Shown piece by piece: positions 48,819-52,799 of a DNA stretch of 64,000 nucleotides (its first letter is position 1; each line of letters starts with the position of its first letter). A program made the position numbers and the translations under genes. This DNA is from Alkalibacterium sp. (lineage in GTDB: Bacteria; Bacillota; Bacilli; Lactobacillales; Carnobacteriaceae_A). The notes under the pieces were generated by a model. That model did no database searches and was not told where the DNA came from. It was given only the letters and a program-made list of their open reading frames with translations. The stretch spans positions 62,001 through 126,000 of the forward strand of contig JAFIFE010000023.1 of the NCBI GenBank assembly GCA_020832185.1. The letters are read 5' to 3'.

Positions 48819-50168
48819 GTGAAAACTATTAAGGTAAGGACATTGCTTAAGGCAGGTACGTGGTGTGCTGCTGTTTCACTGATTTTAGCTGCGTGCGGCA
48901 ATGGAGAGACTGAAACTGGAGACAACACAACTACTGATGGAGAATCAGACACTCAGGGACAGGTCGAACTTGAATTCTGGTCGTTCTGGGGTTCAGGCCC
49001 ACGACGCGATACAATTGAAGAGATCATTGAGGAATTCAATGATACTCATGACACAATCACAGTCGAATATGTCTATCAGCCATGGGGAGATATCTGGACC
49101 AAGGCACTAGCTGCTATAGCTGGAGGTAATGCACCAGATGTTATTGTGCAGGATATTAATAGCGTAAGGCAGCGTGCAGATGCTAATCAGGCAACTAATT
49201 TACAGTCATTCATTGATGAGGAAGATATTTCTGATTCATTCTATCCTCAGCTGTGGGAAACAGTCATTTTCGAAGACGAAGCCTACGCTGTTCCGTTCAA
49301 TACGGATACCCAGGTCTTATTTTATAATATAGACGCATTTGAAGAAGCAGGTCTCGATCCTGACAGCCCCCCACAGACATGGGAAGAGTTGGAAGAAGTC
49401 GCTCGAACCCTGGATCAAGGATCTGAGAACGACTGGGAGCAAATCGGATTTTATCCTAGATGGAATATTGGTCCTGATGTCTGGGCTTTGAATGCAGATG
49501 GCGGTACTTCCTGGTTTGATGAAGAAGGGAACGTGACCATCCATACACCTGAAAAGGTAGATGCTCTAGAGTGGTTACTCGACTGGCAGGATTATTATGG
49601 ACGTGAAACAGTCACCCAGTACGAAGCTGAATTCGGCTCGGGAGTTGCTGACCCGTTTATTTCAGGTCTTGTAGCTATGAGAGGCCAGAACATCAACTAT
49701 TATACTAATCTGAGAGAAAATGCCCCTGAAGATTTCAGATTTAATGTCGCTCCTCTTCCGGAAAGAGAAGAAGGCAGTGGAAATTGGTCTTGGGGTGGAG
49801 GGTTTGTATTGGAAATTCCAGAAAACACTTCTCATCCCGAAGAATCTTACGAATTTATCCGACACTTGACTTCAACAGAAGTTCAGGAACAATTTGGGAT
49901 GAACAGTTTTGATATTATGGCCAATGTGGAGGCAAATGAAAACCTTGCAGAACACGCTGAGCTGGACGAAACGGGTCATATGATATACGAAATGGCTCAC
50001 CAGAATCTTGAGCAGACAGTGATTACACCCGTCCCACTGCATGCACCAGACTATCATTCACTGATCAACACTCAAATCGATGCAGCGTTCCTTGGAGAAA
50101 AAACAGCTGAAGAAGCTCTGGAAGATGCTCAGAACTCTGTTGAAAATCTGGTAGAACAGAACCAGTAA
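48819..50168 (+). CDS. ABC sugar importer, solute-binding lipoprotein (third system)
   Basis: A 449-residue family-1 sugar-binding lipoprotein. A signal peptide ends in a LAAC lipobox, then a Thr/Gly/Asp-rich linker and the fold starting LEFWSFWGSGPRRDTIEEII. The GTG start follows GAGGAGGAATAACT. No glycosidase gene is adjacent, so the ligand cannot be inferred. Downstream are a hairpin, two permeases and a DUF624 gene. Confidence 0.9.
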   Translation: MKTIKVRTLLKAGTWCAAVSLILAACGNGETETGDNTTTDGESDTQGQVELEFWSFWGSGPRRDTIEEIIEEFNDTHDTITVEYVYQPWGDIWTKALAAIAGGNAPDVIVQDINSVRQRADANQATNLQSFIDEEDISDSFYPQLWETVIFEDEAYAVPFNTDTQVLFYNIDAFEEAGLDPDSPPQTWEELEEVARTLDQGSENDWEQIGFYPRWNIGPDVWALNADGGTSWFDEEGNVTIHTPEKVDALEWLLDWQDYYGRETVTQYEAEFGSGVADPFISGLVAMRGQNINYYTNLRENAPEDFRFNVAPLPEREEGSGNWSWGGGFVLEIPENTSHPEESYEFIRHLTSTEVQEQFGMNSFDIMANVEANENLAEHAELDETGHMIYEMAHQNLEQTVITPVPLHAPDYHSLINTQIDAAFLGEKTAEEALEDAQNSVENLVEQNQ

Positions 50169-50193
50169 AAACATATGAAAAGAGTATTAATTC

Positions 50194-50234
50194 TAGTGAT
50201 GAAAAGGGGATGGATTCATCTCCTTTTTCACTAC
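50194..50234 (+). terminator. Hairpin between third lipoprotein and permease genes
   Basis: An imperfect stem (AGTGATGAAAAGGGGA with TCTCCTTTTTCACT) and an 8-base loop, 25 bases after the lipoprotein stop; the third such hairpin in the window. Confidence 0.7.
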
Positions 50235-50254
50235 AGATGAAAGGAGAGTGTGTA

Positions 50255-51211
50255 ATGAAGGCAGCTGAAGATCAGTCACAATTCAAAAAAGCAGTGCAGG
50301 AAGCCAGGCAGTTCAAGAAGAAAAAGTGGACACCCAGTCAGAAGAAAGAAGCGTTATGGGGGCTTCTGTTTGTCTCTCCATTTATCATAGGTTTTTTTGG
50401 ATTTATGTTTTTACCCATGTTATTTTCATTTGTCGGGAGTTTTACTAATTACAATATTACGTCACGTATGGACTTTATTGGACTGACTAACTTCAGACGA
50501 ATGTTCACTCAAGATGAATTATTCACGACGTCACTTTACAATACGGCCTATTATGTAGCATTCAATGTTCCTTTAACTGCTATCGGAAGTGTTTTTTTAG
50601 CGGTATTATTAAACAGGAAAATAAGAGGGATACGCGTTTTTCGCACAATCTTTTATCTTCCGGCGGTATTATCCGGGGTCGCGGTTTATGTTTTGTGGAT
50701 GCAGCTGCTGTCTCCATCATCGGGGTTGATCAATACTATTTTGTCCTGGGTGGGCATAAGTGGTCCATCATGGCTGTTTGATCCTCAGTGGACAAAACCT
50801 GCCTTGATACTTATGCGTTTATGGAGTGTCGGTGGAGCGATGCTGCTTTACTTAGCTACCTTGCAGAACGTTCCAAAACAACTATATGAATCAGCAGAAG
50901 TAGATGGAGCCGGTTTTTCACGCCAGTTTTTCCATATTACGCTGCCCATGATTACGCCTATTATTTTCTATGATGTAGTGACCTCGACGATCGGTGCGTT
51001 CCAGATTTTTCAGGAAGCGTATGTGATGACAGAAGGAGGCACTGGCGGACCGGCTAACTCATTGCTATTCTATAACCTGCACATGTGGAACCAGGCTTTC
51101 GTAGCTTATAATATGGGGTACGCTATGGCGATGTCCATGATTTTATTTATTATCGTCTTATCATTAACCTTCGTCAATTTGAAACTTGCCCCAAGGTGGG
51201 TACATTATTAA
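50255..51211 (+). CDS. ABC sugar importer, permease 1 (third system)
   Basis: A protein of about 318 residues with a basic cytoplasmic N-tail of about 32 residues, then six helices beginning ALWGLLFVSPFIIGFFGFMF. The EAA loop YESAEVDGAGFSRQFFHITL is near 209-228. ATG 50255 is chosen because AAAGGAGA precedes it; an in-frame ATG at 50210 lies within the hairpin. The coding end is 38 bases upstream of the next permease's unusual ATT start. Confidence 0.9.
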   Translation: MKAAEDQSQFKKAVQEARQFKKKKWTPSQKKEALWGLLFVSPFIIGFFGFMFLPMLFSFVGSFTNYNITSRMDFIGLTNFRRMFTQDELFTTSLYNTAYYVAFNVPLTAIGSVFLAVLLNRKIRGIRVFRTIFYLPAVLSGVAVYVLWMQLLSPSSGLINTILSWVGISGPSWLFDPQWTKPALILMRLWSVGGAMLLYLATLQNVPKQLYESAEVDGAGFSRQFFHITLPMITPIIFYDVVTSTIGAFQIFQEAYVMTEGGTGGPANSLLFYNLHMWNQAFVAYNMGYAMAMSMILFIIVLSLTFVNLKLAPRWVHY

Positions 51212-51249
51212 TAGCCAGTCGAGTTAGAGTATAGAGAGGGGGAGGGCTT

Positions 51250-52152
51250 ATTGCTACTTCAAAAGTTATACCGAGTGAGAAACCTCGCGTAAAATGGCAT
51301 AGGAATTATTTTAAAAGTAGAAAAAGACAGCAATTTTTAGGAAAAGTATTCGTATATATCTTGCTTCTTTCAGTTAGTCTAGTGTTGATTGCGCCACTGC
51401 TATGGATGTTAGGAACGTCGCTAAAACCAATGGAAGAAATCGTGAGGTTTCCACCTACGATCATACCTGAGACAATCCAGTGGTCAAATTATATCGAAAC
51501 CGTCCAGGCTTTTCCTTTTTTTAGATATATGAGGAATACGATGGTCATTACTGCGTTTGTTGTTATGGGAAATGTCTTATCCAATTCATTTATTGCCTAT
51601 GGGTTTGCAAAAATCAGTTTTCCAGGTAAAAATATCTTATTTGCACTTGTGTTAGCAACCATGATGGTCCCAGGATTTGTGACGATGATCCCCCAGTATA
51701 TCTTATTTACTCAAATTGGGTGGGTGGGAACCTATCTCCCTTTGATTGTACCGTCGTTTTTTGGGAGTGCATTTTTCATTTTCCTCATGAGGCAGTTTTA
51801 TATGTCGATCAGTAATGAACTAGTAGAAGCTGCTAAAATTGATGGAGCGAATCACCTGTATATTTGGAGTCGGTTGATGCTGCCGTTAACGAAGCCTGCA
51901 CTGATTACGGTGGGAATCATGTCGTTCAATGGCGCTTGGAATGACTTTCTGGGCCCGCTGCTATATATCACCAGAGAAGACCGGTACACATTACAAATTG
52001 GTCTGCAGAGTTTTCAGAGTCAGTCGACTACACAGTGGAATTATCTGATGGCTGGGGCAACACTAGTCATGATCCCAACTATTCTGCTTTTCTTCTTTGC
52101 TCAGAAGTACTTTATCAGTGGAATGGATTTAACAGGAGGGACTAAAGGGTAA
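51250..52152 (+). CDS. ABC sugar importer, permease 2 (third system), apparent ATT start
   Basis: A permease of about 300 residues of MalG type with helices from YILLLSVSLVLIAPLLWM and EAA loop LVEAAKIDGANHLYIWSRLM. The reading frame is open upstream to a stop at 51232 and contains no ATG, GTG or TTG until 51361, inside helix 1. A start at ATT 51250 gives a normal basic N-terminus (IATSKVIPSEKPRVKWHRNYFK) four bases after a GGGGGAGGG ribosome binding site. The alternative is a frameshift with TTG 51251. It overlaps the next gene by one base. Confidence 0.8.
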   Translation: MATSKVIPSEKPRVKWHRNYFKSRKRQQFLGKVFVYILLLSVSLVLIAPLLWMLGTSLKPMEEIVRFPPTIIPETIQWSNYIETVQAFPFFRYMRNTMVITAFVVMGNVLSNSFIAYGFAKISFPGKNILFALVLATMMVPGFVTMIPQYILFTQIGWVGTYLPLIVPSFFGSAFFIFLMRQFYMSISNELVEAAKIDGANHLYIWSRLMLPLTKPALITVGIMSFNGAWNDFLGPLLYITREDRYTLQIGLQSFQSQSTTQWNYLMAGATLVMIPTILLFFFAQKYFISGMDLTGGTKG

Positions 52153-52799
52153 TGGAAGGAGAAGATAGAAAGGGAAGTGAATTAAATCGAGAGGAAAAGA
52201 CATCTGCCCTAGTGGTATTTACAGAATATTTTTCATTTCTGGCCGTCCTCAACTTGCTGTGGGTGCTCACGTCACTCCTCATTATTCCCATTTTTGCCTC
52301 TACAGAAGCTGTTTTTTACTGTATTAATAAGAGGATCAGACAAGAGAAAGTCAGCTGGAAAATTGATTACATCGGATATGTAAAAGCAAACATATGGGGG
52401 AGCATGAAAAGAGGATGGGTTTTCTTATTTATCGGGCTTGTTTTAGTTGCTGACGGACTGATTCTTTTCCTGATGCCGGAAGAAATGATTGTGCGTCCTT
52501 TTCTTTTAGGGGCATTGTTTATCTTTTCACTCTTGTTCATATTTATTATTTTTTATTTTTATACGTTGCTTGTGCACACACACTATTCATTTAAAACCCG
52601 TGTCGTCTACTCATTCATTTACAGTATTAGATTTCCTCATTACAGTATAGGGATAGTCCTACTACTGACAGCACAATTAATAGTGTCACTGTTTTTTGTG
52701 CCTCTGTTTGTATTTTTTGGGCTAAGTTTTCCAGCTTTATTATTTACCTTGAGCGTACAGAAAAATAGGTCGAAATTAAATAAAGAAGAGACCTCTTAA
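52152..52799 (+). CDS. DUF624 (YesL-family) membrane protein, third importer operon
   Basis: A 215-residue membrane protein with five helices (VLNLLWVLTSLLIIPIFASTEAVF near 33 and later). It resembles DUF624/YesL proteins. Its ATG overlaps the preceding permease stop (TAATG), so it is coupled to the transporter. A second member is at 9820, also beside an importer. Biochemical role unknown. Confidence 0.75.
   Translation: MEGEDRKGSELNREEKTSALVVFTEYFSFLAVLNLLWVLTSLLIIPIFASTEAVFYCINKRIRQEKVSWKIDYIGYVKANIWGSMKRGWVFLFIGLVLVADGLILFLMPEEMIVRPFLLGALFIFSLLFIFIIFYFYTLLVHTHYSFKTRVVYSFIYSIRFPHYSIGIVLLLTAQLIVSLFFVPLFVFFGLSFPALLFTLSVQKNRSKLNKEETS

Follow-up and report, generated by a model that had tools for sequence, protein, structure and literature searches.

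Characterised non-canonical start codons in bacteria are very few, and start prediction confined to ATG, GTG and TTG misplaces them (PMC5472188). IF3 acts as a repressor of initiation at codons outside this set; infC starts with ATT in E. coli, and in Streptomyces with ATC (PMC5472188). The infC start is also ATT in B. subtilis (PMC6097659), and it is AUA in S. aureus (PMC13009471). In Streptomyces, sigR starts with GTC in 32 of 34 species and with GTT in the other two, behind a very strong and conserved Shine-Dalgarno (SD) sequence (PMC5472188). The S. aureus genes cvfC1 (AUU) and ccpN (AUA) have conserved non-canonical starts with extended SDs; S. aureus non-canonical starts gave about 10% of the expression of AUG reporters, and ccpN up to 30% in rich medium (PMC13009471). 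The E. coli pcnB gene has an AUU start and is called translationally limited in the title of a cited work.

Here, we analysed a permease gene with a putative ATT start in a 64,000-nucleotide stretch of Alkalibacterium sp. DNA (the window; contig JAFIFE010000023.1, positions 62,001 to 126,000). Like infC, this gene has a strong SD and a codon that differs from AUG at the third base only, but infC codes for the very factor that sets fidelity and regulates its own expression, whereas the permease is a transporter subunit and has ATG in some close relatives. The GTC/GTT variation of sigR parallels the exchange of T and C at the permease start; sigR, however, encodes a sigma factor, and its repression by IF3 was demonstrated (PMC5472188). 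The cvfC1 and ccpN genes share with the permease the Bacillota background, the extended SD and the conserved non-canonical start, and the lower reporter yield was seen in them; they belong to other gene families, and their starts were shown by initiation-site profiling and reporters (PMC13009471). The parallel with pcnB is an AUU start on an ordinary gene, a different one for which experimental work exists. A literature search of open-licence papers returned no description of the start of this permease gene. The second permease adds a probable case to the known rare class of AUU/AUC starts: a conserved non-canonical start on a Bacillota transport gene. Because close relatives carry either ATG or ATT/ATC at this place, they provide a natural comparison for what a weak start codon buys.

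The importer operon and the start region of the second permease

The importer that contains the second permease spans 48819-52152, and all genes of the operon lie on the forward strand. It comprises an extracellular solute-binding protein (48819..50168, PF01547/PF13416, GTG start as listed), a first permease (50255..51211, PF00528, with the ATG start taken at 50255 and an earlier ATG at 50210 in the list of open reading frames) and the second, MalG/UgpE-like permease (51250..52152 with the stop included, PF00528, 300 amino acids from ATT). The second permease scored 72.5 bits against PF00528, above the Pfam gathering score of 26.4, and thus belongs to this family of binding-protein-dependent ABC permeases (subgroup name CUT1). 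UgpE, GlcU and MalG were the best-scoring models, all below their NCBIfam cut-offs (121.3 vs. 297, 104.5 vs. 340 and 98.1 vs. 261 bits respectively). As these scores are well under the cut-offs, we call the protein only a probable sugar permease and assign no substrate. The ATG of the following gene, which encodes a DUF624 membrane protein (52152..52799), overlaps the permease stop (TAATG), and this gene is possibly translationally coupled to the second permease. The DUF624 gene diverges much faster than the two permeases (34-53% vs. 82-95% identity to the Alkalibacterium orthologues).

The frame of the second permease is closed upstream by a TAG (51232-51234) and runs from stop to stop over 305 codons (51235-52152). 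After the TAG it reads AGA GGG GGA GGG CTT ATT GCT ACT TCA AAA. As the preliminary description had claimed, there is no in-frame ATG, GTG or TTG upstream of helix 1, and from 51235 onwards the first one is the TTG at 51361..51363, 37 codons past the ATT and within the first transmembrane helix (helix placed by eye). The SD stretch AGAGGGGGAGGG (51235..51246) ends 3 nt before the proposed start codon ATT (51250..51252). Its duplex with the anti-SD was predicted at -11.5 kcal/mol, assuming a standard anti-SD. The ribosome-binding site had been described as excellent; an SD is present, but in the window no more than 5 consecutive bases match AAAGGAGGTGA exactly, so that the wording was slightly generous. 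Three sister species carry AAAGGAGG at the matching place, ending 7 nt before the start codon, and the SD of the window is less perfect.

On this arrangement and on the comparison that follows, translation of the second permease very probably starts behind a strong SD at the AUU at 51250, or at AUC in some of the sister species, a configuration retained in at least four species and likely to lower the initiation rate. Annotation limited to ATG, GTG and TTG would instead pick TTG 51361, the first canonical in-frame codon, and predict a permease of 263 residues. This start is highly improbable and was rejected: the protein would lose part of helix 1 and its basic cytoplasmic head (RKRQQ or QKRQQ), both of which are kept in the five other Alkalibacterium orthologues, and in A. 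olivapovliticus canonical codons are absent from the first 50 codons counted from the ATC.

Start codons of the orthologues

Some match to this broad permease family was present in 57 of 60 related genomes, and an orthologue (E <= 1e-100) in 6 of the 12 genomes of the genus. A scan of a genome collection retained the best 80 loci of 559 relatives; the five other in-genus orthologues are all from Alkalibacterium. When the sequences are aligned at the SD, the start codon reads ATT in the window (...agagggggagggctt ATT GCT ACT TCA), ATC in A. olivapovliticus (...aaaggaggagagctt ATC GCT ACC TCA), ATT in A. pelagium (...aaaggaggaaagctt ATT GCT ACC TCA) and ATC in A. sp. MB6 (...aaaggaggaatttat ATC GCT ACT TCA), while A. 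putridalgicola (...aaagggggaaaaagt ATG GAT TTA ACT) and A. kapii (...aaaggaggaaaaaa ATG GAC TTA TCT) have ATG. In all six orthologues, whether with ATG or with ATT/ATC, a distance of 6 or 7 nt separates the start codon and the equivalent of AAAGGAGG, and the peptide downstream of the start (IATSKV.P / IATSDVLA) is kept with silent changes. The earlier proposal of an ATT at the right distance from the SD, followed by a permease N-terminus, is borne out by this register and by the alignable N-termini, and the comparison of the codon with its orthologues that had been suggested gave ATT or ATC in three other species and ATG in two. The site thus has the marks of a non-canonical start, namely no canonical codon at the start (in MB6, an upstream ATG without a good SD), normal SD spacing and a codon kept in four of six orthologues.

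The ATT/ATC seems to be a genuine weak start signal that has been retained, and a sequencing error does not seem to explain it. A single base change would give a canonical start, and the TTG in the +1 frame (51251..51253) overlaps the ATT, so the codon might in reality be ATG, or a missing base might make TTG 51251 the start. Such a sequencing or assembly error is extremely improbable, because four separate assemblies agree: ATC, ATT and ATC occur in three other species, and the same error would need to recur each time. The one-base frameshift through TTG 51251, offered originally as the alternative, was rejected because its frame is missing where the codon is ATC; A. olivapovliticus and MB6 have TCG in place of this TTG, which is not conserved and is not the start.

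The rarity of the arrangement was assessed in 81 loci (the best 80 of the scan and the window), in which we looked for an in-frame canonical start with an SD run of at least 4 before helix 1. Such a start was present in 76 of the 81 loci (ATG in 71, GTG in 4 and TTG in 1), and the orthologues outside the genus have canonical starts; that of Marinilactibacillus piezotolerans has a TTG behind an SD-like stretch. The five loci without it are those of the window, A. olivapovliticus, A. pelagium, MB6 and one further locus, L059. In the first three, no canonical codon occurs in frame ahead of helix 1. MB6 carries, in the same frame as its ATC and 33 nt upstream of it, an ATG with an SD run of 3, and also a TTG with a run of 2; L059 has ATGs with an SD run of 3. 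L059 was taken, by eye and as a borderline call, to have an ordinary ATG start, because a G-rich stretch precedes its ATG and no better site is present, and MB6 was taken to start at ATC because AAAGGAGG stands 7 nt before it. By score alone MB6 and L059 are alike, so that the case for ATT/ATC is strongest for the other three species and good for MB6, which is the least forced of the four.

The upstream ATG of MB6, which has the same score as the ATG accepted in L059, also bears on whether initiation might occur upstream of the ATT, for instance at the CTT or at this ATG, with the ATT/ATC being an internal isoleucine codon. The start column does resemble a conserved isoleucine codon, as 13 of 17 conserved isoleucine columns are ATY throughout. 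Against this, the window and A. olivapovliticus have a TAG directly upstream of the SD, only five codons before the ATT/ATC, and four of these codons are the SD stretch itself; moreover, ATY is preceded by CTT in three of the species only, MB6 having TAT there. We consider an upstream start very unlikely.

Constraint, ancestry and possible role of the start codon

Of the 92 conserved four-fold columns, only 5 show the same base in every one of the four ATT/ATC species, and pairwise four-fold identity over the gene body is 0.23-0.36, so that silent sites are near saturation. The start column nevertheless reads AT followed by T or C in all four species. As silent sites are near saturated, the conserved AT points clearly to constraint on the first two bases of the codon. 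The pyrimidine at the third base is suggestive and mild evidence of constraint only, because 6 of the 92 four-fold columns are all pyrimidine and G is absent from 31.

In all five trees, the window, A. olivapovliticus and A. pelagium grouped together (support 86/91 for the first permease and at least 96/98 otherwise), as did A. putridalgicola and A. kapii (92/89 to 100/100). MB6 did not join the window, A. olivapovliticus and A. pelagium in any of the five. A single clade of the four ATT/ATC species was absent from the best tree and costs 6.9 log-likelihood units, and it was not rejected (p-AU 0.161). The trees are thus compatible with a single origin followed by reversion to ATG, with two origins, and with a single origin if MB6 is misplaced.

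We infer that fMet-tRNA would be placed at the AUU or AUC by the strong SD, pairing with the first two bases of the codon and forming a mismatch with the third, to give a product with the N-terminus fMet-Ala-Thr-Ser. By analogy with infC, pcnB, sigR and cvfC1/ccpN, initiation of the second permease would be slow and dependent on IF3 fidelity. AUU/AUC probably lowers the yield of the second permease, and its start may be sensitive to IF3; the lowered rate would perhaps extend to the DUF624 gene through the TAATG overlap.

Whether a weak start of this kind serves control is a separate matter. Selection might hold AUU/AUC as a translational valve that makes the second permease, together with the DUF624 protein coupled to it, the limiting part of the importer and ties importer assembly to IF3 level or growth state; we put this forward tentatively, as a possibility on the doubtful side. 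The chances are about even that AUU/AUC is instead a tolerated slip, offset by the strong SD and without a regulatory role, and such a tolerated weak start is at least as likely as a control point. Two in-genus orthologues, A. putridalgicola and A. kapii, start with ATG behind a similar SD, and therefore the operon can do without the weak start; drift at the third base is compatible with the column counts given above. On the other hand, a return to ATG should be easy at near-saturated silent divergence, yet four species keep T or C.

Folding placed the AUY in the loop of a hairpin, with the SD paired to codons 3-4, in the window, A. olivapovliticus and A. pelagium. The hairpin was dropped as a candidate riboregulator, being no stronger than in synonymous reshuffles of codons 2-9: 1916 of 2000 reshuffles folded at least as well in the window, 827 of 2000 in A. 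olivapovliticus and 964 of 2000 in A. pelagium. When a longer stretch was compared with its dinucleotide shuffles, A. pelagium alone stood out, with a z of -2.16.

infC and other candidate starts in the genome

The rare ATT start had been likened to that of infC in the preliminary description, and the likeness is apt within the genus itself. In 12 of 12 genomes, a GGAGG ends 8 nt before ATA GCN AAA GAC ATG at infC (e.g. C1:336234), with GCT AAA GAC ATG after the ATA in 11 genomes and GCA AAA GAC ATG in one. An in-frame ATG lies four codons downstream of the ATA, and the SD itself contains a GTG and a TTG in frame. Presumably the infC of the genus initiates at AUA, as reported for S. aureus.

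We scanned a 738,957-base sample (28% of the genome, 633 predicted genes) for codons behind an SD run of at least 6 that have no SD-backed canonical start within 45 nt. Genes were called with a simple codon-usage model and not with a standard gene finder, and the SD of the permease (run 5) is itself below the scan threshold, so that similar cases would also be missed. The scan revealed no clear excess of ATT (9) or ATC (4) over other codons (GAA 13, AAA 10, TTA 10, TAT 9). Among 19 rows with ATT, ATC, ATA or CTG, only the infC ATA was judged a likely start; two others (C1:188911 and C1:326147) are followed by an ATG no more than two codons further on. Within the limits of the scan, the AUU start of the permease looks like an isolated case and not like part of a relaxed start code.

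The predicted genes of contig C16 (281) were ranked by the length of coding-like sequence ahead of their first canonical start, and the top 25 were listed. Five of those listed have at least 25 such codons, among them the permease and a gene that is transposase-like by eye. In the transposase-like frame at C16:163446 (minus strand), 49 codons precede the first canonical start and CTTTTTAAAAG occurs close to the beginning; the frame is possibly read by programmed frameshifting. At C16:263355-263400, the first ATG of a long gene has no clear SD, and AGGAGAGAAGGGG lies upstream in frame.
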